Assembly (NCBI RefSeq): GCF_018555685.1
Contig: NZ_JAFLWW010000001.1
Location: 930,001 to 994,000 of the forward strand
Length of the DNA: 64,000 nucleotides
Source of the DNA: Aminobacter anthyllidis
Lineage (GTDB): Bacteria > Pseudomonadota > Alphaproteobacteria > Rhizobiales > Rhizobiaceae
Direction of reading: 5' to 3'
The notes beneath the pieces are model-generated. The model searched no databases. It was given only the letters and a program-made list of their open reading frames with translations, and was not told the DNA's origin. How positions within the stretch are numbered: the stretch's first letter is position 1; every line of letters starts with the position of its first letter. A program made the position numbers and the translations under genes. Shown here one piece after another: positions 44,362 to 61,845 of the stretch.

Positions 44362-44661
44362 CTAGTGGCCGATCGACCATTTCTTGCGGGTCGGCGTCGG
44401 CTTGTTGCCGATCTTGCACAGGGCGCAACCGCAACCATTGAGGTGCGCCTTCTTCACCACTTTCGGTTCGGTGCCGCTGGCCTCTGAACGCGCCAGTGCA
44501 CGGCGCAATTTGCCGTTCATCAGGCTGAGGCGCGGAGCTGCAACGTCCCGGTTGCTCTGTTCCTCGCATTGCGGACATGCGCACGCGCTGAGTGCGTCCT
44601 GCATCGACACCCATTCTTCAAACGGTCCGCAATCGTCGCAAACATAGTTGTAGAGCGGCAT
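44362..44661 (-). CDS. fmdB: FmdB-family zinc-ribbon protein
   Basis: A 99-residue protein with an N-terminal zinc ribbon: MPLYNYVCDDCGPFEEW then CACPQC, four cysteines at FmdB spacing. A second cysteine cluster (NGCGCALC) lies near residue 77. FmdB was named as a regulator of formamidase in Methylophilus and is encoded with fmdA; the mechanism is not known. GGAGG gives the ATG a clear ribosome site. It follows fmdA and the amide channel on the same strand and is the last gene of that operon. Confidence 0.88.
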   Translation of the reverse strand: MPLYNYVCDDCGPFEEWVSMQDALSACACPQCEEQSNRDVAAPRLSLMNGKLRRALARSEASGTEPKVVKKAHLNGCGCALCKIGNKPTPTRKKWSIGH

Positions 44662-44767: not shown

Positions 44768-45280
44768 TCACAGCTTGCCGTCCAGCAGAAGAAATCCGGG
44801 CAGCCAGCCGGTGACGATACCTGCAAGCAGTGTCACGATCGCCGTCAGCCGCAGGATCGGCCGCTGCAGCGCCAGAAGCAGAAAATACAGGAACCACAGC
44901 ACGCCCCAGATCACCCAGTTGGACGCCAGCCAGAAATCGGTCGACGTCTGGGCGGTGGAAAGCCCCTGTACCGCGACAGGAACCGTGGTGATGGCGACGA
45001 ACAGGCTGAACCAGCCGAGACCGCGTCCGTCCACCTTCACCACCCTATTATAGGCCACCCAAAAATAGGTCGTCGAAAACAGGATCGTCAGCGCCGCACC
45101 CTTGATGGACGCAGCGTCGGCATTGGGTCCGAACGCCCAGGCGAGTGACGCGCACAGCGTCACGACGCCGGAGACGACGTTGATGACGACGATTTCCCGG
45201 TCCTCGATTTTCCCGAGCAGCCAAAGCCCGTTCAGGAACAGGACGGCGCCGACATAAAGCAATGCAAATCCGAGCAGCAT
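44768..45280 (-). CDS. AmiS/UreI-family amide or urea channel
   Basis: A 170-residue inner-membrane protein with six hydrophobic segments, typical for AmiS/UreI channels, which pass urea or short amides. It starts MLLGFALLYVGAVLFLNG, the family opening. GGGAGGGG before the ATG is a strong ribosome site; the longer open frame upstream is not real. It lies between fmdA and fmdB, so it most likely lets formamide in. It is closer to AmiS than to the acid-gated UreI of Helicobacter because the long periplasmic loops are missing. Confidence 0.9.
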   Translation of the reverse strand: MLLGFALLYVGAVLFLNGLWLLGKIEDREIVVINVVSGVVTLCASLAWAFGPNADAASIKGAALTILFSTTYFWVAYNRVVKVDGRGLGWFSLFVAITTVPVAVQGLSTAQTSTDFWLASNWVIWGVLWFLYFLLLALQRPILRLTAIVTLLAGIVTGWLPGFLLLDGKL

Positions 45281-45353: not shown

Positions 45354-46580
45354 TCAGGTCGTCTTGGCGACGTCGGCCTTGAAGTCCTGCTTCTTGGGTC
45401 CATGGGCGTTGGGATTGATGTCGAAGTCGAAGATCGCCGTCGGAATGGCCAAGGTGGCGCAGACATTGGGTATGTCGACGATGCCGGCAATCCGTCCTTC
45501 GACAGGAGCGGTGCCCAGGATCATGTAGGCCTGCTCGCCGGAGTAGCCGAACTTCTTGAGGTACTCGATGGCGTTGAGACAGGCCCGGCGATAAGCGACA
45601 TGGGCGTCGAGGTAATACTGCTCGCCCGTGTGCTCATCGACCGAGATGCCCTCGAAGATGAGGTAGTCGTCAAAATGCGGGTCGATCGGGCTTGGCTTGA
45701 AGATCGGGTTGATGACACCGTATTTCGCCATGCCGCCCTTGATGACGTCGACGCTGATGTCGACCCAACCGGCCATCTCGATGGCGCCGCAGAAGGTGAT
45801 TTCGCCATCGCCCTGCGAGAAGTGGATGTCGCCCATCGAGAGACCGCCACCCTTCACATAGACCGGGAAGTAGACCTTCGAACCACGCGACAGGTTCTTG
45901 ATGTCGCAGTTGCCGCCATGTTCGCGCGGCGGAACCGTGCGCCAGGCCTCCGCTGCGGCTTTCCTCGCCGCATCACCCTTCATCTGGCCCATCAGCGCCG
46001 TATCGGAATAGGGCAAGGCTGCCAGCGGCGGCACGCGGCCGGGATCGGTCGCCACCAGCTCGGCTTCACGACGGTTGGCTTCGGCAAGCAGCTTGTGGTC
46101 CGGCAGGCAGCCGATCAGGCCGGGATGGATGATGCCGGGGTAACGCACGCCAGGGATGTGACGCGACGTCGTGTAGATGCCATGGAAATCCCAGCAGGAT
46201 TTGCTGGCCTCGGGGTAATGCTCGGTCAGGAAGCCGCCGCCGTTTTCCTTGGCGAACAGGCCGTTGAAGCCCCATTCCGAGTCGGGCTTGGCGCCGAGAT
46301 CGAGGATATCGACAACCAGCAGGTCGCCTGGCTCCGCTCCATCGACGCCGAACGGGCCGCTGAGATAGTGGACACGCGTCAGGTCGACGTCGCGGACGTC
46401 GTTGGCGCTGTTGTTGTTGCCGATCTGGCCTCCCGTCCAGTCGTGGCATTCCACCCGGTAAGTGTGTCCCGGCTTGAGGTGGTCCACCATCGGAATGTCC
46501 GGGTGCCACCGGTTGTGCGTCTTGATGGCATGATCTTCCGGCGCTTTGTTCAAATCGACTGAAAATACTGTCTGTGGCAT
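45354..46580 (-). CDS. fmdA: Formamidase
   Basis: Hydrolyses formamide to formate and ammonia and can act on acetamide weakly. The protein is 408 residues of the acetamidase/formamidase (FmdA_AmdA) family, distinct from nitrilase-type amidases. It has MPQTVFSVDLNKAPEDHA at the start, YRVECHDWTGGQIGN, GDLLVVDILDLGA and GGNCDIKNLSRGS with the metal-binding His/Asp. GAGGAGG precedes the ATG at 46580. It is the first gene of an operon with the amide channel and fmdB. Three TGTAA boxes lie about 120-180 bases upstream in the region shared with the OmpR-type regulator. Confidence 0.95.
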   Translation of the reverse strand: MPQTVFSVDLNKAPEDHAIKTHNRWHPDIPMVDHLKPGHTYRVECHDWTGGQIGNNNSANDVRDVDLTRVHYLSGPFGVDGAEPGDLLVVDILDLGAKPDSEWGFNGLFAKENGGGFLTEHYPEASKSCWDFHGIYTTSRHIPGVRYPGIIHPGLIGCLPDHKLLAEANRREAELVATDPGRVPPLAALPYSDTALMGQMKGDAARKAAAEAWRTVPPREHGGNCDIKNLSRGSKVYFPVYVKGGGLSMGDIHFSQGDGEITFCGAIEMAGWVDISVDVIKGGMAKYGVINPIFKPSPIDPHFDDYLIFEGISVDEHTGEQYYLDAHVAYRRACLNAIEYLKKFGYSGEQAYMILGTAPVEGRIAGIVDIPNVCATLAIPTAIFDFDINPNAHGPKKQDFKADVAKTT

Positions 46581-46946
46581 TGGGCTGTTCCTCCTCAATT
46601 GCCGGCTTTGTAGGAGGGTTGGCTTGCGCGCCTTCCTCGTCCTTGCGCCGAGTAACGCGATGCAACCCGACACAGCCGTGCGAGGCCAAGCTAGGTGCGG
46701 CTTGTAATCGCCATGCATCGGAAACCTGCCTGCCATGTAATTTTTTGTAACCAAACGGCTTGTGTCAGTGCCCGCCAAACGCAACAACCCCGAAATTTTA
46801 GATATAACTTTCAGATTGTTAGAGAGACCCACCGACAGGCGGCTGATGCCAGCCGCCGTCCGCGCGCGGACAAGCGACGCTGACCGCGACCAATGGCCAC
46901 CTTCCCGTCTCGACCGGGCCCACGAATTGCGATTATCGTAGCGGCC
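46581..46946. other. Divergent control region, fmdA versus response regulator
   Basis: About 365 bases between fmdA and the OmpR-type regulator. No gene was recognised. Positions 46735-46830 are AT-rich compared with the coding flanks. The TGTAA boxes listed separately lie here and it should hold both promoters. Confidence 0.6.
46703..46750. promoter_or_regulatory. TGTAA box array, putative OmpR-type regulator site
   Basis: TGTAA occurs at 46703-46707, 46736-46740 and 46746-46750. The last two start 10 bases apart, the direct-repeat spacing bound by OmpR/PhoB-type dimers, and the first is 33 bases (three turns) upstream. They lie between fmdA and the OmpR-type gene. Binding is inferred from the pattern and position. 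Confidence 0.42.
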
Positions 46947-47684
46947 ATGACAGTTGCCGACCCCAAATCACGCATTCTCATTGTCGATGACGATCGTCGG
47001 CTGTGCAGCTTTCTGGAAAAATTCCTGACGAGCGAAAGTTACGCCATCGTCAGTGCCCATGACGGGCGTTCGATGCGGCGCGCGCTGGCCGATGAGGCGT
47101 TCGATCTCGTCATCCTCGATCTCGGTTTTCCTGTCGGTGAGGACGGCGTAACCCTGGCACGCAGTATGCGCTCGCAATACGACCTGCCGCTGATCATGCT
47201 TTCGGGCAAGAACACTACAATCGACAAGGTCGTCTGCCTCGAATTGGGAGCCGACGACTACATCACCAAGCCTTTCGAGCCGCGCGAGCTTCTGGCGCGC
47301 GTGCGGACGGTGATGCGACGCTTTGCCAAGCGCATCAACCTGCCCGAACCGGCTGAGGCCGATCGCTCGGCTGCCGTCTGTTTCGATGGTTGGCGGCTCG
47401 ATCCAGCGCGTTACAAGCTGTCGTCGCCGAACGGCGAAAACGTGCGGCTTACCAGCCAGGAATTCCAGATCCTGTCTGCGCTGGTCGAACGGCGCGGCCG
47501 CATACTGTCGCGCGAGCAGATCCTCGACATCGTCGCCAACCGCAACTGGACGCCCTATGACCGCAGCATCGACGTGCTGATCGGCAAGATACGCCGCAAG
47601 TTGCACGACAATGCGCGCGACACGCAGCTCATCAAGACCATTCGCGGCGTCGGCTACATGTTCGCCCCTCAGGGCCGGGACTAA
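46947..47684 (+). CDS. OmpR-family response regulator
   Basis: A 245-residue DNA-binding regulator. The receiver domain has ILIVDDDRRLCSFL, phospho-acceptor Asp58 in VILDLGFP, and the Lys in DDYITKPFEPREL. The C-terminal winged helix ends DVLIGKIRRKL and IKTIRGVGYMF, the OmpR/PhoB type. An ATG 18 codons upstream is an alternative start; MTVADPKSRILI looks more natural. It is divergent from fmdA and its stop overlaps the stop of the REC-kinase gene by a few bases. By position it is the likely output of the permease-kinase and REC-kinase beside it. Confidence 0.92.
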   Translation: MTVADPKSRILIVDDDRRLCSFLEKFLTSESYAIVSAHDGRSMRRALADEAFDLVILDLGFPVGEDGVTLARSMRSQYDLPLIMLSGKNTTIDKVVCLELGADDYITKPFEPRELLARVRTVMRRFAKRINLPEPAEADRSAAVCFDGWRLDPARYKLSSPNGENVRLTSQEFQILSALVERRGRILSREQILDIVANRNWTPYDRSIDVLIGKIRRKLHDNARDTQLIKTIRGVGYMFAPQGRD

Positions 47685-48871
47685 GGCGCGCGCGGCAGAT
47701 AGAGGTTGATCCGGGTGCCCTCGTCCGGCTTGCTGGAAATGCCGAGGCGGCCGCCTGACTGGCGCACGAACCCATCGACCATCGGCAGGCCGAGACCACT
47801 GCCTTTCCCCGCAGGCTTGGTGCTGAACAGCGGTTCGAGCGCCCGGCGGCGCACCGCAACCGGCATGCCGTGTCCGGTGTCGATGACCGAAATGACGACA
47901 TACTGACCGGGCAACAGGCCCGAGGCGACGCGGGCGTCGTCGGGCCGGACGACAAAGTTGCAGGCCTCGAACCGAAGCTTGCCGCCGTCGGGCATCGCAT
48001 CGCGTGCGTTGAGCGCAAGATTGAGCAGGCTGGTTTCCAACTGGGTCGGATGAACCTCCACCTCATGCAGGTCGTCCGCCAATTCCAGCGAGAGGCTGAC
48101 CTTGTCGTCCAGCGTCCGGCCCAATACGCGCATCAGGTCCGGCAGCGCTTTGCCCAGGTCGACGCGGACCGTATCGCCTCCCTCCTGCCGGCCGAAATTG
48201 AGCAGGCGCGTCGTCAGATCCGTACCCGCCTTCACCGCATCCAGCGCATCGTCGACCATCTGCGCCAGCTGGGGCTCGGTCCGCACATGCTCCTGCAGCC
48301 AGCGCAGATTGCCCAGCAGGACAGCCAGGATGTTGTTGAAATCGTGTGCGATGCCACCGGTCAGCTGCCCCATCGCCTCGATGCGCTGCATCTGGCCAAG
48401 TCGCTCGGCGACCAGGCGCTTTTCTTCCATCAGGCGGGTGCGCTCGAAGCAGCGCTCCAGGGTCGCCAACAGGTCGGCGCTGTAGAAAGGCTTGCACAAA
48501 TAGTCATAGGCGCCGGCCTGCAACGCCTCCACCGCCGTCTCGACCGAGGCATAGGCCGTGACCATGAGACAAACGAGATCGGGGCTTTGCTGACGAAAAG
48601 CCCGGACCAGTTCGACGCCATTGCCGACACCCAACCGCACGTCGACAAGGGCAACCGCCGGCTGGTGCAAGGCCAGCGCGCGCTGCGCCGACAACGGATC
48701 ATGCGCGATGATCGCCTGGTAGCCTTCAAGTTCAAGCAATCCGGCGAGGCTCGCGGCAAAGTCCTCGTCATCGTCGACGATGAGGACCCTCTTCTTCTCG
48801 ACCGGGTCCGCTCCGTGCGGGACGACATCGTCGCCGATGAAATCAGTCTGCAGGTCTGTCTGGTCGGTCAT
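47681..48871 (-). CDS. REC-domain histidine kinase
   Basis: A 396-residue soluble hybrid with the receiver in front: RVLIVDDDEDFAASLAGL, phospho-acceptor Asp77 in VALVDVRLG, Lys127 in YLCKPF. A linker helix leads to the kinase domain with His176 in QLTGGIAHDFNNILAVLLGN, then NLALNARDAMPDGG, DTGHGMP and GKGSGLGLPMVDGF. It has no membrane segment, so it probably receives phosphate or a protein cue from the permease-kinase, whose stop codon overlaps its start (ATGA). It may then pass phosphate to, or remove it from, the OmpR-type regulator. Confidence 0.92.
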   Translation of the reverse strand: MTDQTDLQTDFIGDDVVPHGADPVEKKRVLIVDDDEDFAASLAGLLELEGYQAIIAHDPLSAQRALALHQPAVALVDVRLGVGNGVELVRAFRQQSPDLVCLMVTAYASVETAVEALQAGAYDYLCKPFYSADLLATLERCFERTRLMEEKRLVAERLGQMQRIEAMGQLTGGIAHDFNNILAVLLGNLRWLQEHVRTEPQLAQMVDDALDAVKAGTDLTTRLLNFGRQEGGDTVRVDLGKALPDLMRVLGRTLDDKVSLSLELADDLHEVEVHPTQLETSLLNLALNARDAMPDGGKLRFEACNFVVRPDDARVASGLLPGQYVVISVIDTGHGMPVAVRRRALEPLFSTKPAGKGSGLGLPMVDGFVRQSGGRLGISSKPDEGTRINLYLPRAP

Positions 48872-51501
48872 GACGAACCAGCGCCTGCCCGCGGCAGCAC
48901 GATAGATACGCGCGTGCCAGCGCCTTGCTCGCTGTCGATCAGCACCGAGCCGCCATGTTGCTCGACGATGCGCTTGACCAGCGGCATGCCCAATCCGACG
49001 CCGAACGCCTTGGTGCTGAACAGCGGCTCGAACACCCGTGCCGCCGTCTCGCGCGACATGCCGGCGCCATTGTCGGCAACGCAGATGATGGCGTTATCGC
49101 CTTCGCAACGCGTGGAGACAACAATCGCCGCGTCATCCGCCGTCTCGCAAGCCTGCAGCGCATTGGCCAGGACGTTGGAGAACGCCTGCCGCAACCGCTC
49201 GCCGTCGGCCGATACTCTGCATCCGGCGGCGAGATCCAGCTGTATCGGCCGCGTGGCGTCCTGCTCGGCGACATGCTGGGCCACCCATCGGTCGATCAGG
49301 ATCGGCGTGACGACCAAAGCGTGCTTGCGCGAGAAATCCAGCAGGTCCTCGATGATCCGCACGCAGCGCCAGGCGTTGCGCTGCAGCCGTTGCAACTCGT
49401 TGAGCACTGGTTCGTCGGCGTTCTTCAGCGAGCGGCGCAACACGTCGGCTGACGTTACCAACGTGCCCAGCGGGTTGCGCAGCTCGTGGCTGACGGTTGC
49501 CGTGATCTGGCCGATGGCGGCAAGGCGCTCGTTGCTCGCCAGGTCCCTTTGGGTCTGCCGCAACTTTTCCAGCGAGGCGACAAGATCGCGCTCGGCAAGT
49601 TCGCGGCTCTCCTGCGACAGCACGATCCACCATGCGCCGATACCCAGCAGCGGCAGCAGCGCGAGGAAGACCCGCAGGAGCAGCGGGCCGCTGGCCAGAT
49701 GTGGCTGTTCCGACCCCGGCTCGATGAGCCGAAAGGTAAGCAGGAACACGCCGCCCGTAATCACCGCCAAGGTAAACAAGACACCTACCACCTTGAGCAG
49801 ACGCTGTCCCATATGAGGGGCGATCTTGTCGCGTATGTGAGGCAGCGCCCGCCCGAAATACCGCGACCGCGATGTTTCCAGAACACCGACCGGTGCCTTG
49901 CACACGTCGTGACAATGGGAATCGAGGCTGCAGCACAACGAGCAGATCGGCTGCTCGTAGAAGGTGCAATGCACCATGTCGGAACGTTCGTAGGTGACGC
50001 CGCAGATAGCGCACAAATTGGCGTCCGGTATGGTTGCCGGCAACTGGACTGGTTGGCGCGCCAGATAGTATCGCCCCTTGGTCGCAACACCGATTGCCAC
50101 CGCACTTGTGAGTGCCGTGACAAAGGCGATCGGCGCGGCATAGGCCTGCGCCATGACGCCTGAGGTACCGGAGAAGCACAACAAGGCGACGAACGACGCC
50201 AACGCCATTGAACCGCAGCCGACGGGATTGAAATTGTAGAGATAGGCGCGCTTGAACTCGGGAAACGCCGGACTGACCCGAAGCGGCTTCAGGATGGCGA
50301 GGTCTGCGAAGATCGAGCCGATCCAGGCGGCTGCGATGATCGAATAGACCGCCAGCACCAGCTCCAGCGTCTGGAAGATGCCGAGCAGCATCAAGAGCAG
50401 CGAGATCAGGATGTTGAACACCAGCCAGACGACCCGCCCGGGATGGTAGTGGGTGACGCGCGAGAAGAAATTGGACCATGCCAGCGAGCCGGCATAGGCA
50501 TTGGTGACGTTGATCTTGACCTGCGAGATCAGCACGAAGATCGCGGCCAGGGCGAGCACGACGCGCGGATCGGCGCTCACATACTCGTAGGCGATGATGT
50601 ACATGTGGATGGGTTCGAGCGCAGTCGAGCGCGACAGGCCTGCCTGGATAGCGAGCACCGCCAGCAGGCTGCCGCACAAAATCTTGAAGCCGCCGACGAT
50701 GATCCAGCCCGGGCCTGCGGCAATCACCGCCGCCCACCAGCGGAAACGGTTCTCGCGGGTCTTGTCGGGCAGGAAGCGCAGATAGTCGACCTGCTCACCG
50801 ATCTGGATCGACAGCGCGCACAAAACGCCAATGGCCGAGCCGAATGCGAGGAAGTTGAACCCCTCACCCACGATATCGCTGCCAACGAAAGCCGCCCATT
50901 CGTCGAGCGTGTCGGGATGAGCAAACAGGATGTAGGCGAACGGCGCCAGATGCATGGCGATCCAGATCGGCTGCGACAGGAGCTGGAGCTTGCTGATCAG
51001 TGTCACGCCCATGAACGTGATCGGGATGATGACCACCGAGGAGATGACATAGCCCAACACCAGCGGCACATCGGCAAACAGGTTGAGCGCCTGCGCCATG
51101 ATCACCCCTTCGAGGGCGAAGAATATGAAGGTGAATGTAGCGTAGATCAGCGAGGTGATGGTCGAGCCGACATAACCAAAACCCGCACCTCGGGTAAGCA
51201 GGTCCATGTCGATGTTGTAGCGGCTGGAATAATAGGCAATCGGCAGGCTTGTCAGGAAAATAAACAGGCAGGTCACAAGGATGGCGGGAAAGGCATTGGC
51301 GAAGCCATAGCTGAGCGTGATCGCGCCGCCGATTGCTTCCAGGGCCAGAAACGAGATTCCGCCAAGCGCCGTGTTGGCAATGACGAAGGGAGACCAGCGG
51401 CGAAACGACCGCGCCGCATAGCGCAGCGAATAATCTTCCAGCGTCTCGTTGGCGATCCAGGAGTGATAGGATCGCAAAGCCGGCAATTGCGGCGTTTCCA
51501 T
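48868..51501 (-). CDS. NCS1-type permease fused to cysteine-rich segment and histidine kinase
   Basis: An 877-residue three-part sensor. Residues 1-475 are a complete-looking NCS1 (nucleobase:cation symporter) permease with about 12 helices, opening ANETLEDYSLRYAARSFRRW. Residues 497-534 form a Cys/His-rich segment (C497, C500, H511, C512, C520, C523, C524, C530, C534), a likely zinc site. Two further helices (570-592, 605-627) lead to a HisKA domain with His672 in TATVSHELRNPLGT and an ATPase domain (VLANALQACE, ADNGAGMS, GVGLGMPLVK). NCS1 proteins move purines, pyrimidines, hydantoins or allantoin. It is coupled to the REC-kinase by a four-base overlap and lies near the formamidase operon. 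The start at 51501 matches NCS1 openings; 52 further codons are open upstream. Confidence 0.9.
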   Translation of the reverse strand: METPQLPALRSYHSWIANETLEDYSLRYAARSFRRWSPFVIANTALGGISFLALEAIGGAITLSYGFANAFPAILVTCLFIFLTSLPIAYYSSRYNIDMDLLTRGAGFGYVGSTITSLIYATFTFIFFALEGVIMAQALNLFADVPLVLGYVISSVVIIPITFMGVTLISKLQLLSQPIWIAMHLAPFAYILFAHPDTLDEWAAFVGSDIVGEGFNFLAFGSAIGVLCALSIQIGEQVDYLRFLPDKTRENRFRWWAAVIAAGPGWIIVGGFKILCGSLLAVLAIQAGLSRSTALEPIHMYIIAYEYVSADPRVVLALAAIFVLISQVKINVTNAYAGSLAWSNFFSRVTHYHPGRVVWLVFNILISLLLMLLGIFQTLELVLAVYSIIAAAWIGSIFADLAILKPLRVSPAFPEFKRAYLYNFNPVGCGSMALASFVALLCFSGTSGVMAQAYAAPIAFVTALTSAVAIGVATKGRYYLARQPVQLPATIPDANLCAICGVTYERSDMVHCTFYEQPICSLCCSLDSHCHDVCKAPVGVLETSRSRYFGRALPHIRDKIAPHMGQRLLKVVGVLFTLAVITGGVFLLTFRLIEPGSEQPHLASGPLLLRVFLALLPLLGIGAWWIVLSQESRELAERDLVASLEKLRQTQRDLASNERLAAIGQITATVSHELRNPLGTLVTSADVLRRSLKNADEPVLNELQRLQRNAWRCVRIIEDLLDFSRKHALVVTPILIDRWVAQHVAEQDATRPIQLDLAAGCRVSADGERLRQAFSNVLANALQACETADDAAIVVSTRCEGDNAIICVADNGAGMSRETAARVFEPLFSTKAFGVGLGMPLVKRIVEQHGGSVLIDSEQGAGTRVSIVLPRAGAGSS

Positions 51502-51789: not shown

Positions 51790-52785
51790 CTACGCTGCTT
51801 CGCTGCGGCTCGTGAGGTCGACGGCGGCGAAGGCATCGCGCAGCACCTGCGGCCCGGCACCCGGCTTGTTGGCGTCGGTCGACAGTATCTGGCGGTAGCG
51901 CCGCGCGCCGGCGAGGCCATGGAACAATCCGACCATGTGGCGGCTGACATGGCCAAGACGTCCGCCGGCGGCGATATGCCTGCCGGCATAATCGGCCATG
52001 ATCTCTATCAGCGCGGCGAAATCGAAATCTGGAGGCGTTGCCTCTTGCAGCGTCGCGTCGACACCGGTCAGAACGCCAGGTGTGTGGTAGGCCGCGCGGC
52101 CAAGCATCACACCATCGACATGCCGGAGATGCGCGCGCGTTTCCTCGAGCGTCAGGATGCCGCCATTGATGCCGATGAACTGGTCGGGAATCCTCGCCTT
52201 CAAGCGATAGACGCGCGCGTAGTCGAGCGGCGGGATATCACGGTTTTCCTTGGGGCTCAGCCCCTCGAGCCAGGCCTTGCGGGCATGCACCCACAACGCA
52301 TCGGCACCGGCTGCAAAGACGCCATCGGCAAGCACATCGAGCGCCGGCTCGGGATCCTGATCATCGACGCCGATGCGGCACTTGACCGTGACCGGGATTT
52401 TCACCGCATCCTTCATCGCCGCGACGCCTTCGGCGACGAGACCGGGCGTTTTCATCAGGCAGGCACCGAACGTACCCGACTGCACGCGGTCCGAAGGGCA
52501 GCCGACATTGAGGTTGATCTCGTCATAGCCAAACGCCTCGCCGATGCGCGCGGCCTCTGCCAGCTTGGCGGGATCGGAGCCGCCCAGTTGCAGGGCAACG
52601 GGATGCTCGCAGGCGTCGAAACCGAGCAGCCGCTCACGCGCGCCATGGATGACCGCGTCGGCTACGACCATTTCGGTGTAGAGCAGCGCCTTGCGCGTCA
52701 GCTGGCGATGGAAGAAACGGCAATGCCGGTCAGTCCAGTCCATCATGGGCGCAATGGCCAGTCTATGTTCTTGATATTCCATCAT
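51790..52785 (-). CDS. dusA: tRNA-dihydrouridine(20/20a) synthase
   Basis: FMN enzyme reducing uridine 20/20a in the tRNA D-loop. The protein is 331 residues. Motifs are APMMDWTDRHCRFFHRQ near the start, LQLGGSDPAKLAEAARIGE, NLNVGCPSDRVQ, and the active Cys in GTFGACLMK, with the FMN region GINGGILTLEE and DGVMLGRAAY. It is intact. The first ten codons are AT-rich compared with the rest. The integrase gene begins about 115 bases beyond its start, and dusA 5' ends are known target sites for a family of tyrosine recombinases. Confidence 0.96.
   Translation of the reverse strand: MMEYQEHRLAIAPMMDWTDRHCRFFHRQLTRKALLYTEMVVADAVIHGARERLLGFDACEHPVALQLGGSDPAKLAEAARIGEAFGYDEINLNVGCPSDRVQSGTFGACLMKTPGLVAEGVAAMKDAVKIPVTVKCRIGVDDQDPEPALDVLADGVFAAGADALWVHARKAWLEGLSPKENRDIPPLDYARVYRLKARIPDQFIGINGGILTLEETRAHLRHVDGVMLGRAAYHTPGVLTGVDATLQEATPPDFDFAALIEIMADYAGRHIAAGGRLGHVSRHMVGLFHGLAGARRYRQILSTDANKPGAGPQVLRDAFAAVDLTSRSEAA
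52714..52785. other. Likely attachment-site region at the dusA 5' end
   Basis: The conserved dusA segment encoding APMMDWTDRHC is the known insertion target of DusA integrases. Here it directly faces the integrase gene, and the codons beyond it towards the integrase are AT-rich, as expected if the element replaced the first codons of dusA. The matching second copy was not found by eye between the integrase and 56.3 kb, so the exact core is not proven. Confidence 0.4.
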
Positions 52786-52818: not shown

Positions 52819-52897
52819 GAGTGCACACGAATTTACGCCACATTGCGACGCTTTTCGCCACCGTTCGACGGCTGAGTGCACACGGAGCGCACACGAA
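52819..52897. repeat. Three direct repeats before the integrase gene
   Basis: Copies of GAGTGCACACGAA or close variants lie at 52819-52831, 52874-52886 (GAGTGCACACGGA) and 52885-52897 (GAGCGCACACGAA). The last two start 11 bases apart. Their place between attachment region and integrase start fits integrase arm-type or excisionase sites, or operators for the integrase gene. Confidence 0.55.
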
Positions 52898-52899
52898 AA

Positions 52900-53961
52900 A
52901 TGGCCAGTTTCACAAAACTCCATTCCGGCTCCTGGCGCGTTCAAGTTCGTCGCAAGGGCCGTTACGTCAGCGAGACCTTCTTGCGGCGAGACGATGCCCG
53001 ACGCTGGGCCCTTGAGGCGGAGCGCCAGATTGATCGTGGCGAAACGCCAAATCAGTCGCGCATCGCGCGCCTCAAAACCTTCGGCGATCTCATCGACCTT
53101 CATATCGACGACATGTGTGACGTCGGCAAGCCCCCTCGACGCTCGAAAGCTGCGACTCTGGATATGCTGAAGCGTCAGCTTGGAAAGTGCAACATGGCGG
53201 CGCTCGATCGCGAGCGGCTCATTCGGTTCGGCCGCGATCGAGCGGCAAAAGGTGCAGGCCCTGCTACCCTCGGCATCGACATTGGCACTATCAAGCTCAT
53301 TCTGTCTCACGCGGCCGCAGTTCACGGCCTACCCGTTACAATCGAGGCCGTAGACCTCGCCCGCATTGCTTTGAAACAGCTAGGTCTGGTTGGCAAAGGG
53401 CAGGAGCGCGACCGTCGTCCGACCCAGGATGAACTTGACCGGTTGATCTCGCATTTCGACGCAAACCCGCGTCAGATCGCGCCAATTGGCCGAATCATCC
53501 GCTTCGCTGTTGCTACCGCAATGCGCCAAGAGGAAATCTGCACGGTGCGTTGGTCGGATCTGGAATGTCGCACCCGGATGCTTCTCATCCGTGACCGGAA
53601 GGATCCCCGAAACAAGCAGGGAAACAACCAGCGCATTCCGCTTTTCGCTGCATGCGGATACGACGCATGGGCCATCGTGGAGGAGCAGCGCGCCTGCCGA
53701 AGTAACAACGATGATCGGATTTTCCCATTCAATGGCAGATCAGTCGGCACAGCTTTTCGTCGCGGATGCGCCGACCTGAGTATCCACGACCTTCACTTCC
53801 ACGACTTGCGACACGAAGGCACAAGCCGACTTTTCGAGGCCGGATTCACAATCGAGCAAGTTGCACTCGTTACCGGGCACAAGGACTGGAAGATGCTGAA
53901 GCGGTATACGCACCTAAAGCCAGAAGCCCTCCACGCTCTACTTGCAGCCCGCGCCGCATGA
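52900..53961 (+). CDS. Tyrosine recombinase (integrase) next to dusA
   Basis: A 353-residue site-specific recombinase. An N-terminal arm-binding region (SGSWRVQVRRKGRYVSETF) is followed by a core-binding domain and a catalytic domain with Arg209 (TAMRQEEIC), His301/Arg304 (HFHDLRHEG), His327 (VTGHKDWK) and nucleophile Tyr336 (KRYTHL). All catalytic residues are present. The ATG at 52900 has no strong ribosome site; another ATG lies eight codons earlier. It reads away from dusA into a region of gene fragments, so it is probably the only intact gene of a decayed integrated element. Confidence 0.93.
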   Translation: MASFTKLHSGSWRVQVRRKGRYVSETFLRRDDARRWALEAERQIDRGETPNQSRIARLKTFGDLIDLHIDDMCDVGKPPRRSKAATLDMLKRQLGKCNMAALDRERLIRFGRDRAAKGAGPATLGIDIGTIKLILSHAAAVHGLPVTIEAVDLARIALKQLGLVGKGQERDRRPTQDELDRLISHFDANPRQIAPIGRIIRFAVATAMRQEEICTVRWSDLECRTRMLLIRDRKDPRNKQGNNQRIPLFAACGYDAWAIVEEQRACRSNNDDRIFPFNGRSVGTAFRRGCADLSIHDLHFHDLRHEGTSRLFEAGFTIEQVALVTGHKDWKMLKRYTHLKPEALHALLAARAA

Positions 53962-54006
53962 GTTTGGGATCCGTTCAGGCGTGGGAGTGCGGTAGTTTCG
54001 CGGTCG

Positions 54007-54254
54007 ATGACACAGCAGCAAGTCCAGGCAATTCGCGTGCGGGGCTTGGAGAAGTCGTACGAACTGCATGTGTTGCGCGGCGTGGACTTCGACGTGGCAC
54101 GCGGCAGTATCTTTGCACTGCTCGGTTCGAACGGGGCGGGCAAGACAACGGCGGCGAAAATCCTGTCCACTCGGCTCAGGGCGGACGATGGCGCGGCCAG
54201 TATCGACGGCTTCGATGTCGCCCCGCAACCGGCGAACGTGCGAGAGGCCATCAG
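54007..54254 (+). pseudogene. 5' fragment of a DrrA-type ABC transporter ATPase
   Basis: About 82 codons beginning with ATG encode the start of a daunorubicin-resistance-type ATPase: AIRVRGLEKSYELHVLRGV, Walker A LLGSNGAGKTTAAKIL and DGFDVAPQPANVREAIS. After the last motif the similarity stops abruptly at a junction with phosphoketolase sequence in another reading frame. Signature and Walker B motifs are missing, so no working ATPase is made. Confidence 0.82.
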
Positions 54255-54389
54255 TACGATGCTGCTTTCGACAATCCCGATCTCGTCGTCGCCTGCGTCA
54301 TCGGCGACGGCGAGGCAGAAGCCGGCAAGCTCGCTGCCTCCTGGCATTCGAACAAGTTCCTGCACCCGGCACATGACGGCGTCGTGCTG
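54255..54389 (+). pseudogene. Internal fragment of phosphoketolase
   Basis: About 45 codons match the thiamine-diphosphate-binding region of xylulose-5-P/fructose-6-P phosphoketolase: AAFDNPDLVVACVIGDGEAE then KLAASWHSNKFLHPAHDG. It lies in a different frame from the ABC fragment before it and joins gluconokinase sequence directly after it. No start, and both ends of the gene are lost. Confidence 0.8.
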
Positions 54390-54685
54390 GCAACCGCAGA
54401 AACGGGGCAGCCGGCCGTGATCGCCTGCTCGGTCCTGAAGCGGAGTTACAGGGATTTCCTGATGCAGCTACTGGGAACGTCCAGTTTTTGTTCCTGCACG
54501 GGGCAAAAGACCTGATCAATTCAAGGCTGCTTGCCCGCAGAGATCACGTTGCGCCGGCCTCCCTTCTTGAAAGCCAATTCCAAGTCTTGGAACCTCTTGC
54601 CGCCGATGGGCAATCGATCCGGCTGGATACTGCCAAGGAACCAGCAGCGATCGTAGCCGAGGCAGTCGCTGCGCTCGGCCCGTAG
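54390..54685 (+). pseudogene. 3' fragment of gluconokinase with frameshift
   Basis: C-terminal half of a GntK-type kinase: ETGQPAVIACSVLKRSYRDF in one frame, then AATGNVQFLFLHGAKDLINS and RDHVAPASLLESQFQVLEPL in another, up to the stop. Loss of one base near 54463 explains the shift. The P-loop half is missing. It is fused without spacer to the phosphoketolase fragment. Confidence 0.8.
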
Positions 54686-56353: not shown

Positions 56354-57994
56354 TTACAGCGCGCTGACAAGCTGTTGTGCCACCTTCGGCTGCGGGTTGA
56401 GCATGATGTAACTTGGCCGGGTTTCCCGCTTGACGCGCGCCAGCATCGCCCTGGCCTTGACCAGCAGTGTGTCGTCGCGCGACGCCGCTTCGAGTTTGTG
56501 TTGAAGCGCTTCCAGCGTGTCGATGGCTTCTTCGCTGCGGTCAAGCGCGGCGAGGCTCTTGGCCAGCGAGAACTCGGCGGCCGCGAAGTCTGGCGCAAGC
56601 GACAGCACTTTGCGGAACGCATCCGCTGCCTCGATGTGCCGAGACAATGCCTGCAGTTCCATTCCCATTCTGAGCCACGCCTTGGATGACGTCGGTACCG
56701 AGGTTGCAAGCGTTTGGAAGTGTGCCAACGCTTCGCGGTGGTCGCCCTTGGCCGCCAGCAACTGGCCGATGCCATAGAGCGCGCGGGAATGGTTGGAGTC
56801 GGTGGCAAGGATCTGGCGGTAACCGTTCTCCGCTCGCGCCAGTTGGCCCTGCTGGTGGAAGCGCGTGACCTCGGAGAAGATGCCGTGGAGCGAGCGGGGA
56901 TCGAGACGGTCACCGTTATTGCGGCCGCTCTTGGTATGGATCATCGCGCAGTTGATCTTGCTCTCGGTTACGCCGAAGGCGAACTTGTAGGGCTCGTCGC
57001 CGCGCAGGAAATCATAGGTCGTGAAGCCGTTTTCGATGGCCAGCTTGATGCAGTGGCCATGCAAGATCAGGCCGGCGGGGATGGAGGTCACCGCCTCGTC
57101 ACGGCCGGCCATGAAGAACAGCAAGGCCTTCTTGACCGGGTCGACGAAGATGGCAAGCGCGCCCAGCGGCCGGTCGCCTTGCCACAGGACCGGCAGGAAC
57201 AGCGTGCCAGCCCGGAAACTGTCTCGCAGCACGCGGCGATTGTTGTGCAGGATGGCCGCCAGCCGATCGCCCTTGCGGGCGCCCCATTTCACCCGCCAGA
57301 GCTCAAGCAGCGTGTCGATGTCGCGCTCGTAGGTGTCGGCGTCGGCGCGGGTGATGCGCAACTCGCCCGCATCGACCTTGCGCAGGAAGCGTCGAAGCTT
57401 CTGCCTGGTGTTGGTGCTGAGCACATTGTCGAGATAGCCGTCGAAGGTATCCGGCAGGGCGGCAGCAAAGCAGCGGCAGTTGTCGACATTGTCCGCCGCG
57501 TTGACGCGGCTGAACTCGCGCATCGCAAAGATGTCGCGGGAGAACTGACCGATGAAGGCGAATATGCGCTCGCGCGACATGCGCAGGTTTTCGAGGTTGA
57601 GCCGCGCCCAACCCATCTGGGCGACATGGCGGCCGAAGGCCTGCAGCGCCTTTTCGGCATGGACAGGATCGCAAATGGCGCCGGTGTAGTCGGCGGCATT
57701 GTTGCCGGCCATGTTGATCTCGTTGAAAAACAGGCCGGTCTTGCCGCTCATGCGGGTGCGCATGCGCATCGGCATCAGCGCCACATAGGGTGATCCGGGG
57801 CTGCCGAGGCGCGCGGCGAGCACGAACCAGGCGCCCTTGTAAAAGCGCATGTAAGGCACCAGCCAGTTCCACGAGGTGAAGAACTGCGCCTCCGGGTCAG
57901 CCTTGTAAAGGCGTTCCCAGTCCTGCTGCAGCTTCGCCAGCGTATCGAGATCGGTAATGACGTCGACCTGCATTTGTGTCCCCCTCATCGTCAT
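56354..57994 (-). CDS. BcsL/CelD-like acetyltransferase fused to TPR repeats
   Basis: A 546-residue soluble protein in two parts. Residues 1-380 resemble the GNAT-fold acyltransferases of the CelD/FemAB type: FFTSWNWLVPYMRFYKGAW, SFRAGTLFLPVLWQGDRPLG, FFMAGRDEAVTSIPAGLILH and TYDFLRGDEPYKFAFGV. Residues 390-510 are TPR repeats (HQQGQLARAENGYRQILATD, LYGIGQLLAAKGDHREALAH). It is the last gene of the secretion operon, 14 bases after the HlyD gene. A second start seven codons later also has a good ribosome site. By position it may modify or chaperone the secreted protein; this is inference. Confidence 0.8.
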   Translation of the reverse strand: MTMRGTQMQVDVITDLDTLAKLQQDWERLYKADPEAQFFTSWNWLVPYMRFYKGAWFVLAARLGSPGSPYVALMPMRMRTRMSGKTGLFFNEINMAGNNAADYTGAICDPVHAEKALQAFGRHVAQMGWARLNLENLRMSRERIFAFIGQFSRDIFAMREFSRVNAADNVDNCRCFAAALPDTFDGYLDNVLSTNTRQKLRRFLRKVDAGELRITRADADTYERDIDTLLELWRVKWGARKGDRLAAILHNNRRVLRDSFRAGTLFLPVLWQGDRPLGALAIFVDPVKKALLFFMAGRDEAVTSIPAGLILHGHCIKLAIENGFTTYDFLRGDEPYKFAFGVTESKINCAMIHTKSGRNNGDRLDPRSLHGIFSEVTRFHQQGQLARAENGYRQILATDSNHSRALYGIGQLLAAKGDHREALAHFQTLATSVPTSSKAWLRMGMELQALSRHIEAADAFRKVLSLAPDFAAAEFSLAKSLAALDRSEEAIDTLEALQHKLEAASRDDTLLVKARAMLARVKRETRPSYIMLNPQPKVAQQLVSAL

Positions 57995-58008: not shown

Positions 58009-59352
58009 TCAGCGCTCCATGAATGCGCGCGACATGCTGTCGGCGATCGGCTTGGTCAGATACCTGAAGAAAGTCCGCTCCTCGGTCTGGACCAGCACCT
58101 CCGCCGGCATCCCGGGCGTCGGCGTGAAGCCATGAACCCGCGCGATCTGGTCCGGCGCCAGGCTAACGCGAGCGACATAGACTTCGCGCGCCACTGGACC
58201 TGATGTGTCGGGCAGGGCGTCGGCGGACACATAGATCACCTGGCCCTCGAGCACCGGCGTGGTGCGGCGATTGAGAGCGGTGAGTTGCACCGTCGCGTTC
58301 TGGCCGACACGGACACTGTCGATGTCGGTGCGAGAGATCAGTGCCTCGATTACCAACGGCACGTCTGACGGCAGGATCTCGACGATGGGCTTACCGCTTT
58401 CGATGACGCCGCCGGCGGTGTGGTAATACATGCGCACGATGGTGCCAGCGACAGGCGCGTTGATGGTCACACGGCTGAGGATGCTCTTGGCCTGGCGAAG
58501 CTGCTCGCGGATCGTATCGAGGTCGCCTTCAAGGTTCTGCAACTGCTCGAGCGCGACCTGCTTGTAGGCTTCCTCTGTCTGCTTGATCTGCTGGTCGAGC
58601 TTGATGATCTCGGCGCCGATCTCGGAACCCTGGGCGGCGAGGCGACCGATCTGTCCCTCGGCATCGGCCATGGCGCGCTGGATCGCCTTTATTTCGGTGG
58701 CCCTGAGCAGGCCCTTGTCGAGCAGGGACTTCTTGCCGGTATATTCTTCCTTCATCAAAGCCAGCTGCCGTTGCACCGCATCGTGCTGTTGCTGATAGCC
58801 TTCGGCACGGTAGCGATAGGCGGCGATGTTTTGTTTCAACAGCCCGATCTCGCTCTGAAGCTTGCCGCGTGCGGCGGTGAAATTCAGCTGCTGACCGTCG
58901 ACGATCGGCTTGATCTCCGGATCCTGGATGTTGTCGCTGACGTTGCTGGGGAAGGAGATTTCAGGCGCGCCGCTGATCTCGGCATTCAACCGTGCGGCGA
59001 TGGCGTCGAGGCGTACCTGGCGCAGGAAGAGCTGGCGCTCGCTGGCTTGCGCCGCCGTTTCGTCAAGGCGGACCAGCGGCTGGTCGTAGCGTACGCGATC
59101 ACCTTCGCTGACCAGCAGTTCCTTGATGATGCCGCCTTCCAGATGCTGGACGATCTTGTTCTGGCCAGCGGCGGCGAACGAACCCTGTGCGATGATGGCT
59201 GCGGCGAGCGGAGCGGTGAGAGCCCAGGTGCCGAAACCGCCGAAGGTGAGCACGATGAGCAACAGGCCGATCTTAGTCTGCTTACCGATCGAGCGCGGCA
59301 CATCGGCGTACCATTCGAGATCGTGGACCTTTACGATTGCCGTGTCGCTCAT
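58009..59352 (-). CDS. HlyD-family type I secretion adaptor
   Basis: Membrane-fusion protein of 447 residues that links the inner-membrane ABC exporter to an outer-membrane TolC protein. One membrane helix lies near residues 28-50. Then come the lipoyl half (QHLEGGIIKELLVSEGDRV), a long coiled-coil hairpin (about 140-290) and the returning half (PVAGTIVRMYYHTAGGVIES), with the C-terminal region ERTFFRYLTKPIADSMSRAF typical of PrtE/HlyD adaptors. It starts 12 bases after the ABC gene. A TolC gene is not in the window. Confidence 0.95.
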   Translation of the reverse strand: MSDTAIVKVHDLEWYADVPRSIGKQTKIGLLLIVLTFGGFGTWALTAPLAAAIIAQGSFAAAGQNKIVQHLEGGIIKELLVSEGDRVRYDQPLVRLDETAAQASERQLFLRQVRLDAIAARLNAEISGAPEISFPSNVSDNIQDPEIKPIVDGQQLNFTAARGKLQSEIGLLKQNIAAYRYRAEGYQQQHDAVQRQLALMKEEYTGKKSLLDKGLLRATEIKAIQRAMADAEGQIGRLAAQGSEIGAEIIKLDQQIKQTEEAYKQVALEQLQNLEGDLDTIREQLRQAKSILSRVTINAPVAGTIVRMYYHTAGGVIESGKPIVEILPSDVPLVIEALISRTDIDSVRVGQNATVQLTALNRRTTPVLEGQVIYVSADALPDTSGPVAREVYVARVSLAPDQIARVHGFTPTPGMPAEVLVQTEERTFFRYLTKPIADSMSRAFMER

Positions 59353-59364
59353 GACATTGTCCCC

Positions 59365-61845
59365 TCAAGGAATCTGATGGCCGAACGAGCCGCCCTCGAT
59401 GCTCAACCCGCGTTGGGCAAGCGCCTGGAGTACGTCCTGTCGCTGACCGAACAAGGCCACCGTTCCGTTGACCAGCAGCAGGATCTTGTCGACGCTGTGC
59501 AGCAGTGCCGGCCGCTGCGTGATGGTGATGACGGTGATCTTGTTTTCCTTCGCGTGCTGAAGCGCACGGGCAAGCGCTGCGTCGCCGGCAGCGTCGAGAT
59601 TTGAATTCGGCTCGTCCAGTACCACCATGCGCGGATTGCCGAAGAAGGCGCGGGCGAGCGCGATGCGCTGCTTCTGGCCGCCCGATAGTGGTGCGCCATC
59701 GGCGGCGACGAAGGTTTCGTAGCCATGCGGCAAGGTGGCGATCATCTCGTGTACGTCCGCCAATTGGGCCGCCTCGTAGATCTGGGCGTCGGTCGCATCC
59801 TCGCGCATGCGGCCGATATTTGCCTTGATCGAGGCCGGGAACAGCTGGACGTCCTGGGGCAGGTAGCCGATGTTTTCGCCGAACTGGCGCTGGTCCCAGT
59901 TGCGCAGGTCCATCAGGTCGAGGCGCACATTGCCTGAAGTCGGCAGGATCGAACCAACCAGCATCTTGCCGAGCGTGGTCTTGCCGGCGCCTGAATTGCC
60001 GATGATGGCAAGAGAGTCGCCCGGAGCGAGTGCGAAGGTGATGCCGTTGAGCACGACACGCTTGGTGCCTTGCGGCACAAACAGCAGCCGCTCGACATCG
60101 AGCCGGCCTTCCGGGCGGGGAAGGTTGAGCCGCTCGAAATTGAGCGGCGACGTCTGCAGCAGGCTGGCGATGCGGCCATAGGCGGAGCGTGACTGCACAA
60201 CCTGGTTCCAGCCCTCGATGGCGCCTTCGATCGGGCCTAGCGCACGGCCGGCGATGATCGAGGCGGCGATCACCATGCCGCCACTCAGATGGCCATCGAG
60301 CGCGAGATACGCACCCCAGCCGAGCATGGTGACCTGGGTCAGCAGCCGGACTGCCTTGGACATCGCGGCGAAAGCGATGTTGCGGTCCTGTGCGAGGACC
60401 TGCGCCCTGAGCGAGCCGGCTGTGTCCTTGCCCCAGATGCGGACAGCCTCCGGGATCATGGCGAGTGCGTTGATGATCTGCGAATTCCGCGACATCGAGT
60501 CGAGATGCAGGTTGGCCTTGCTCTGGAACGAATTGGCTTCGCTGAACGAGGCAGCCGTCGAGCGCTGGTTGATGATGGTGATCACGAGCAACAGCAACGC
60601 CGATGTGACGACGATGAAGCCGAGATGCGGATGCACAAGAAACACGGCAAGCACGAACAATGGAGCAAGCGGCGCATCCAGCAGCGACAGCAAGGTGCCC
60701 GAGACAAGGAATGAGCGCAGTTGCCCCAGGTCGCCGAGCGTCTGGTATTCGCGGCCGTTGCTGTGGAGCGCGGCACGCGCCGCAGCACTCAGGATCGGCG
60801 CACCAAGCTGGGCGGCAACCTCGACGGCGGTCCGCATCAGGATGAAGCGACGGATTGCGTCGAACATCGCCTGGAGGATCACCGCGCCGACAATCACGAT
60901 CGTCAGCATGACCAGCGTGTCGACCGAGCGGCTGGTCAGTACTCGATCGGAGATCTGGAAGAGATAGAGCGGTATCGCGAGCACCAGCACGTTGCTGGCC
61001 AGCGTGAACAGCATGACGATCAACAGGTTGCGCTTGACGACACTGAGACCGGTCTTGAGCGAGGCGGAGAAATCCACCGGTCCGAGGCGCTTGTGGAAGA
61101 CGCCGCCACTGTCGATATCGCCGCCGTTCGGGCCCTTGGCCTCGGGCAGTTTTTCCCTTGCCCTGATCGGACCATTGTCGGCGTCGATCACCTTGCCGAC
61201 CGGCATCGACGTATCCTTCATTTCAGGCTTGGCCGGCCCTTGCGGCTCGCTTACCCGCATGTCGGGAGACACGGGCGCCGAAGCCGTGGCGGCTGTCGGG
61301 CGTGGCGGCTCATTCGATGCTGATCTGGCCTGAGGAGCCGCAGCCTGAGGAGCCGCAGCCTGAGGAGCCGCGGCCTCAGGTTGGGGCGCGGCAATGGGTG
61401 CCTCCGGAGTTGCACGCGCGGTCTGTTGAGGCCGCGTGCCCGGTGCTTCGGCGGGGGCAGACGCTGGGGGGCGTTGAGCCGTAGCGTTCCGCTCCGGAGG
61501 TATGATCGAAGGCTCAGTCGGCCTTCCGGATGGTTGTTGCGCATGCGCCGTTGAGGCGGCCGCGGGAGATGCAGGATTTGGAGCCGGAGCGCTGGTCGAT
61601 ACGCGCTCTACCGATGCAGCAGGCGTGTCACTGGCAGCGTCGTGCAGTTCACCGACGACGTTATCGATGTATCGCTCAAGCCGGTCGAGTGCCTGCTCCT
61701 GGGGAGCTACGGCATGCGACAATCTCGCTTGCGGGACGGGCTTGATTTCGGGCGAACGCGGACGCGCCGGCGAACTGTCCTGGCTGTCGCCGTCGTCCGG
61801 TACGTTCTGAAAGGCACTCCAGCCTTGATCGCGGTCGTCGTTCAT
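59365..61845 (-). CDS. Type I secretion ABC exporter with long Pro/Ala-rich N-terminus
   Basis: Inner-membrane ATPase of a type I secretion system, 826 residues against about 570-580 for PrtD relatives. Residues 1-270 are a disordered Pro/Ala/Gln-rich extension including three AAPQA units. Six membrane helices follow from about 275 (RNLLIVMLFTLASNVLVLAI). The ATPase domain has Walker A GNSGAGKTT at 616-624, signature LSGGQKQRIALARA from 720, and Walker B MVVLDEPNSNLD from 740. The H-switch position reads ITQRPALL, Gln instead of the usual His. It lacks the C39-like N-domain of RTX-toxin exporters. Confidence 0.93.
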   Translation of the reverse strand: MNDDRDQGWSAFQNVPDDGDSQDSSPARPRSPEIKPVPQARLSHAVAPQEQALDRLERYIDNVVGELHDAASDTPAASVERVSTSAPAPNPASPAAASTAHAQQPSGRPTEPSIIPPERNATAQRPPASAPAEAPGTRPQQTARATPEAPIAAPQPEAAAPQAAAPQAAAPQARSASNEPPRPTAATASAPVSPDMRVSEPQGPAKPEMKDTSMPVGKVIDADNGPIRAREKLPEAKGPNGGDIDSGGVFHKRLGPVDFSASLKTGLSVVKRNLLIVMLFTLASNVLVLAIPLYLFQISDRVLTSRSVDTLVMLTIVIVGAVILQAMFDAIRRFILMRTAVEVAAQLGAPILSAAARAALHSNGREYQTLGDLGQLRSFLVSGTLLSLLDAPLAPLFVLAVFLVHPHLGFIVVTSALLLLVITIINQRSTAASFSEANSFQSKANLHLDSMSRNSQIINALAMIPEAVRIWGKDTAGSLRAQVLAQDRNIAFAAMSKAVRLLTQVTMLGWGAYLALDGHLSGGMVIAASIIAGRALGPIEGAIEGWNQVVQSRSAYGRIASLLQTSPLNFERLNLPRPEGRLDVERLLFVPQGTKRVVLNGITFALAPGDSLAIIGNSGAGKTTLGKMLVGSILPTSGNVRLDLMDLRNWDQRQFGENIGYLPQDVQLFPASIKANIGRMREDATDAQIYEAAQLADVHEMIATLPHGYETFVAADGAPLSGGQKQRIALARAFFGNPRMVVLDEPNSNLDAAGDAALARALQHAKENKITVITITQRPALLHSVDKILLLVNGTVALFGQRQDVLQALAQRGLSIEGGSFGHQIP
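61331..61375. repeat. Three tandem 15-base repeats inside the exporter gene
   Basis: TGAGGAGCCGCAGCC occurs twice in a row, then once with a single change (TGAGGAGCCGCGGCC). On the coding strand each unit gives five residues of the Ala-Ala-Pro-Gln-Ala run. Unit number is likely to vary between strains by slippage without breaking the frame. Confidence 0.9.

Follow-up and report, generated by a model that had tools for sequence, protein, structure and literature searches.

The 64,000-nucleotide stretch of Aminobacter anthyllidis DNA analyzed here (the window; contig NZ_JAFLWW010000001.1, positions 930,001–994,000) encodes a single protein of 877 amino acids, designated P0001 (48868–51501), in which an NCS1-type permease is joined to an eight-Cys module, two further helices, a HisKA domain, and a HATPase domain. 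These features all lie on the minus strand. The permease module (residues 1–482; 50056–51501) contains 12 membrane helices between residues ~38 and 473, as counted by hand; hydropathy and the AlphaFold2 model agree. It is followed by the eight-Cys module (residues 494–538; 49888–50022), which has the motif CxxC-x11-C-x7-CSLCC-x5-CxDxCK, and by helices 13 and 14 (residues 564–631; 49609–49812), which run into the coiled coil of the kinase. Both hydropathy and AlphaFold2 place the first of these helices at residues 564–592 and the second from residue 604 onward. The kinase consists of HisKA (residues 664–727; 49321–49512; Pfam PF00512, 54.3 bits), whose phospho-acceptor His672 (49486–49488) is invariant in 24 of 24 relatives, and HATPase_c (residues 766–871; 48889–49206; PF02518, 84.5 bits). 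Pfam detected no PAS domain in P0001 and returned zero matches for residues 1–490, even at E ≤ 10.

The fusion of permease, Cys module, and kinase is real. We found the same domain order in 34 full-length relatives, one of the nearest being that of A. carboxidus (96% identity), and the fusion is therefore not an artefact. These results bear out the initial annotation, which had described a permease, a Cys-rich stretch, and two helices preceding intact HisKA (His672) and ATPase domains. It had also named an assembly or annotation error as a possible undoing of the proposal, and that prospect is now vanishingly small. An interrupted reading frame in one relative (locus L035) could be taken in its favor; it is outweighed by the 34 full-length relatives and by 520 plasmid records that carry the permease-Cys part with ≥80% coverage (with the kinase part examined in L179). 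The L035 frame (L035:8001–10623), from a Nitratireductor metagenome-assembled genome, stops near residue 594, where the gene has decayed, is frameshifted, or was misassembled.

Comparison of related loci revealed that the permease and Cys module are attached to three kinds of kinase. Class A, to which the window belongs (28 loci), pairs a HisKA kinase with a separate receiver-kinase at 28/28 loci and with an OmpR regulator at 27/28. Class B (7 loci; Caballeronia, Burkholderia, and Variovorax) has a different kinase, and a receiver-EAL protein directly follows in 7/7, which is why the class B sensor probably controls cyclic di-GMP (c-di-GMP); the EAL protein was assigned by Pfam at L038 (L038:10727–12007) and by tblastn at the other class B loci. 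Class C (58 loci; 50 from the phylum sample and 8 relatives) has a hybrid kinase, mostly ~1120–1250 amino acids in length. A receiver-LuxR-type regulator lies downstream: at 55 of these loci one such protein is matched as a single piece, on the kinase strand and no more than 6 kb away, and at the remaining three in two pieces; the LuxR label is based on NCBIfam matches to MctR and EpsA that are weak and confined to the C-terminal part.

Identity and invariance were calculated from 24 sequences spanning the three classes. Between classes A and C, mean identity is 52% in the permease and 53% in the Cys module, falling to 19% in helices 13–14 and 27% in the kinase. The corresponding A–B values are 62%, 56%, 39%, and 26%. 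In local alignments the P0001 kinase is 30–35% identical to six further kinases among those listed for the same genome, so that the kinase of class C is no nearer to it than these are, although the two measures are not the same. Trees of the permease plus Cys module and of the kinase each separate classes A, B, and C. The permease and Cys module thus form one conserved sensor cassette, joined to three distinct kinases with OmpR, LuxR-type, or EAL outputs, and helices 13–14 follow the output.

The permease part is NCS1-type, as judged from its predicted fold and its homology to a stand-alone permease at locus L130; the assignment rests on these two lines because the probability from profile comparison is low. 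The closest folds to the predicted model are CodB and three Mhp1 entries, which occupy the first four places, the fourth tied with AgcS. A family profile (A2) matches the L130 permease over 18–486 with an E value of 2.4e-45. The L130 permease in turn scores 36.4 bits against the NCS1 model PF02133 (cut-off 23.5) and 59.4 bits against TIGR00800, short of the 353.1 that this model requires. When nine NCS1 permeases served for profile comparison, residues 31–470 aligned at a probability of 18%, or 39% once L130 was added. The NCS1 label of the initial annotation is therefore supported by the CodB/Mhp1 fold and by L130, though PF02133 is unmatched at E ≤ 10 in P0001 and in 20 family members as well. 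SLC5 identity was rejected: PF00474 is unmatched, and profile comparison with nine SLC5 proteins aligned 18 columns only. Searches of PDB sequences with the single sequence or with family profiles yielded nothing useful, a Cys-rich PDZ-binding protein appearing at an E value of 1.7; an AMP-ligase match of the L130 permease in PDB (E 0.0099) was taken as chance. This stand-alone permease, the closest found, adjoins a double carbon-nitrogen hydrolase as well as a binding protein that resembles UrtA but scores below the UrtA cut-off (L130:7949–12373); the substrate of the permease may be an amide or a nitrile.

Alignment of helix 8 points to a substitution at the sodium site. The hydroxyl residues of the Na2 site on helix 8 of Mhp1 are, by the numbering we assume, Ser312 and Thr313. 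When P0001 is aligned without gaps through NCS1 members of its genus, and those with Mhp1, Ser312-Thr313 fall on Lys329-Ile330 (Lys329, 50515–50517, minus strand); the HMMER alignment to Mhp1 inserts one residue here, so this assignment is possibly one residue out. Lys329-Ile330 is identical in 24/24 relatives, and the L130 protein has Arg-Ile at these positions. The Na2 hydroxyl residues therefore appear to be replaced by Lys-Ile, and, if Lys329 is correctly assigned, a fixed positive charge would take the place of the sodium ion. The initial annotation stated that its proposal would fall if sodium and substrate residues were lacking in all homologues; for the sodium residues, and for that part only, such a loss appears to have occurred.

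That proposal was a true transceptor in which the NCS1 module still imports an amide and transport drives the kinase. Its appeal lies in the fact that 136 of the 482 permease positions are invariant, which indicates strong selection on the core, and in CbrA, whose SLC5 domain is reported to import histidine despite a Lys in the Na2 site (available portion of PMC13022988). The CbrA result weighs against a receptor without transport. On the other side stand the apparent loss of the Na2 hydroxyl residues, the dedicated uptake genes that accompany most copies, and Ks-Amt5, whose fused transporter domain binds ammonium without translocating it (excerpt of PMC5764959). Transport by the permease part is doubtful because the Na2 residues appear replaced and dedicated uptake genes lie alongside, and we consider the transceptor rather unlikely. 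The apparent Lys-Ile at Na2, the neighboring uptake genes, and the joining of one cassette to three kinases all point to a receptor role.

The Cys module is conserved to a degree similar to that of the permease. All eight Cys are invariant in 24/24 sequences; the strict motif is present at 28/28 class A, 7/7 class B, and 54/58 class C loci, and a loose form at 93/93. The core of the module is modeled by AlphaFold2 with a predicted local distance difference test score of 83–86. The fold matches to the model were weak, many of them zinc domains, and the predicted succession of strands and a helix, together with the pairing of Cys, may resemble that in the treble-clef fingers of FYVE, RING, LIM, and ZZ domains. 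We consider the module to be probably zinc-holding and cytoplasmic. A STAC linker was rejected for P0001, in which the STAC motif LGPx(x)A (defined in the accessible text of PMC4834066) is absent.

It could be argued that the Cys module itself senses metal, redox state, or nitric oxide, with the permease acting as a scaffold or second input, since its eight Cys never vary and it is roughly as conserved as the permease. A tightly bound structural zinc would produce equal conservation. When the module was used as the sole query, 20 matches were found in 289 genomes, every one in frames of 945–1243 amino acids, and a permease lay upstream in all 12 matches inspected. The surrounding genes, moreover, serve amide and urea use. 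A Cys-centered sensor is for these reasons improbable.

Those surrounding genes provide the strongest clue to the signal, one that the initial annotation did not use. The start of a 396-amino-acid receiver-HisKA-HATPase protein (47681–48871, minus strand) overlaps the stop of the permease-kinase gene by 4 bases. Beyond it lie an OmpR-type response regulator of 263 amino acids (46893–47684, plus strand; Pfam Response_reg and Trans_reg_C) and, on the minus strand, genes for the formamidase FmdA (45354–46580; NCBIfam NF045496, 750.5 bits, cut-off 500; ATG picked from the match start), an AmiS/UreI-type channel for small amides or urea (44768–45280; PF02293, 199.4 bits), and the zinc-ribbon protein FmdB (44362–44661; TIGR02605, 46.6 bits, cut-off 31.3), the start codons of the latter two being inferred.

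Genes for formamidase, amidase, urea transporter, or urease are found at 90 of 93 related loci. FmdA and AmiS occur together at 27/28 class A loci (the exception being L017, in the stretch examined) and at 7/7 class B loci; AmiS/UreI is found in 34 of the 35 class A and B loci combined. At least one of FmdA (35 loci), AmiE (16), UrtA (48), UrtB (47), UrtC (50), and UreC (9) is encoded at 56 of the 58 class C loci, the exceptions being L129 (a 4.8 kb contig) and L138. The bit-score thresholds for neighbors were set by us, and UrtA-like scores may take in relatives of UrtA; single representatives of FmdA, UrtA, UrtB, UrtC, UrtE, and AmiE were named by NCBIfam. The UreC proteins are presumed to be such from gene order and general knowledge. 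The context set comprised 60 stretches; in two of these, L130 and L140, the permease stands alone, and neither is among the 58. The counts leave out four places whose frame length puts them in class C (G151, G293, G327, and G426), two that belong to class A on the same criterion (G237 and G131:C3), and the G276 fragment.

Co-occurrence across genomes is consistent with this picture. In a sample of 398 Pseudomonadota genomes, the protein is present in 53, FmdA scoring above 500 bits in 40, and both in 39; the protein thus accompanies the close FmdA type in 39/40 genomes and occurs in 14/358 others (Fisher p = 5e-41, relatedness ignored). The 500-bit threshold was chosen after a gap in the scores (555 to 285 bits) had been seen. 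The stand-alone permease of G234 was dropped from this test, and the 53-amino-acid fragment of G276 was kept. A urt-like cluster in Bradyrhizobium, with a PF03069 gene and a gene for an aliphatic amidase next to it, has been considered to serve probably acetamide or formamide, not urea (excerpt of PMC3098086). P0001 is probably a sensor for small amides because its relatives nearly always adjoin genes for formamide or urea use.

The same context could suggest that the kinase reads the AmiS/UreI channel or the Urt transporter through protein contact and binds no amide of its own. Frequent gene partnership with uptake systems fits such a flux sensor, for which BceS-BceAB offers a known precedent (accessible part of PMC8534201). 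The partner, however, is AmiS/UreI in some classes and Urt in another, with a permease that is conserved throughout, and although at least one of UrtA, UrtB, and UrtC is found at 51/58 class C loci, the other 7 show none of the three. We regard sensing of flux through a partner as a minor prospect.

A candidate binding site for the OmpR-type regulator lies upstream of fmdA and consists of a TTACA direct repeat (46736–46750) and a third TTACA (46703–46707), together spanning 46703–46750 on the minus strand. TTACA-5 bases-TTACA is present in 28/28 class A fmdA-regulator intergenic regions (that of the window and those of 27 loci, by alignment), with the third copy 32–34 bases further on in 26/28. 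The TTACA block alone stands out in the intergenic alignment. The three-copy pattern occurs in the 6.7 Mb genome a single time, here, and the pair was counted 27 times across class A loci, once per locus holding both genes and always between fmdA and the regulator. The pair was not found in L017, in the 7 class B loci (131 kb), or in the 58 class C loci (1.02 Mb); class B and C loci are without an OmpR regulator. Direct repeats at ten-base spacing fit a regulator of the OmpR type.

Other features were observed in the remainder of the window. A phage-type integrase (52876–53961) adjoins a dihydrouridine synthase gene (51790–52785), a known kind of integration site, with the formamide cluster on the opposite side. 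Behind the integrase, at 53766–54515, a fragment of a phosphoketolase N-terminal domain overlaps an ABC ATPase fragment in what looks like gene debris. A GNAT-TPR protein (56354–57994) and a HlyD-type adaptor (58009–59352) are encoded beside a large ABC protein (59365–61845), which we read as a putative type I secretion component.

We think it likely that P0001 serves as a receptor kinase in the membrane whose ligand is a small amide, in this case most likely formamide, and that it is derived from a former NCS1 transporter. In this mechanism, a small external amide would occupy the LeuT-fold core, and the resulting helix shifts would pass through the cytoplasmic eight-Cys module and helices 13–14 to the dimerization helix and set the activity of His672. 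Gene order suggests that phosphate may then move to the receiver-kinase encoded by the overlapping gene, at its receiver domain, and from there to the OmpR-type regulator, which would bind the TTACA repeats and thereby induce formamidase together with the AmiS/UreI channel and FmdB. Permease and Cys module form a portable cassette, found elsewhere with a LuxR-type regulator near urt, amidase, or urease genes and, in Burkholderiales, with a receiver-EAL protein. Evenly poised, in our estimation, is the broader proposal that small amides and urea are sensed by an unrecognized family of receptors of NCS1 origin, found in ~1 in 8 of the Pseudomonadota genomes sampled; that in these receptors Lys stands in for Na+ and the transport cycle serves as a ligand switch; and that a new eight-Cys coupling module analogous to STAC leads to three kinases with OmpR, LuxR, and c-di-GMP breakdown as outputs.

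Full-text literature searches, from whose coverage subscription papers were mostly absent, returned no description of an NCS1-kinase. Yet sequences of the family abound: among 527 plasmid records with a match to the permease-Cys part, 342 are from Klebsiella, and many are near-identical. On one K. pneumoniae plasmid (L179; CP024516.1 62731–82323), amiF-urtEDCBA is divergent from a hybrid kinase and regulator. Names among the plasmid matches listed are generic and include 'ATP-binding protein', 'response regulator', and 'Aerobic respiration control sensor protein ArcB'. The family has thus been sequenced often but, so far as we have seen, not recognized. In one published genome description, a second urtABCDE operon is accompanied by a hybrid kinase, its domains unremarked in the portion available, and by a regulator of the LuxR family (PMC13296017); we infer that this kinase belongs to the permease-kinase family. 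On our reading, the urea/amide clusters that Klebsiella plasmids carry would gain a regulator.

Several known systems share features with P0001. CodB and Mhp1 differ from its permease part in being 15–17% identical, in having Na2 hydroxyls where P0001 appears to have Lys-Ile, and in carrying no fused kinase. AmiC/AmiR likewise places amidase genes under a ligand-binding sensor, but it combines a soluble binding protein with an antiterminator instead of a membrane kinase (excerpt of PMC13209695). Ks-Amt5 resembles P0001 in that a transporter fold, joined to a kinase, has taken on the role of a receptor; it differs in its Amt fold, its ammonium ligand, and a direct coupling to the kinase that involves no PAS, HAMP, or STAC domain (same excerpt of PMC5764959 as above).

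The closest parallel is provided by the SLC5/STAC kinases CbrA, CrbS, and RpuS, which likewise unite three parts in a single chain: a transporter domain of LeuT fold, a small module that provides coupling in the cytoplasm, and a histidine kinase. Lys is reported at the Na2 site of CbrA too (PMC13022988, in the part available), as it appears to be in P0001 by alignment. In the CbrA-type proteins, however, the core is SLC5 rather than NCS1-type, coupling involves a four-helix STAC bundle rather than an eight-Cys module, and, in the source material at hand, the context is histidine, acetate, or pyruvate rather than amide and urea genes. The precedent cited by the initial annotation is thus confirmed as an analogous architecture from a different family, with neither SLC5 nor the STAC motif in P0001. 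Which event in the transporter domain of CbrA triggers the kinase is stated to be an open question (same portion of PMC13022988). The family described here offers a second, independent case of a transporter-kinase, with another transporter family and another coupling module in many bacteria, and it comes with predictions for the class of ligand, the target gene, and the site on DNA. Transporter-derived receptor kinases were known already; what P0001 and its relatives add is the transporter family, the coupling module, and a well-supported link to small amides and urea.

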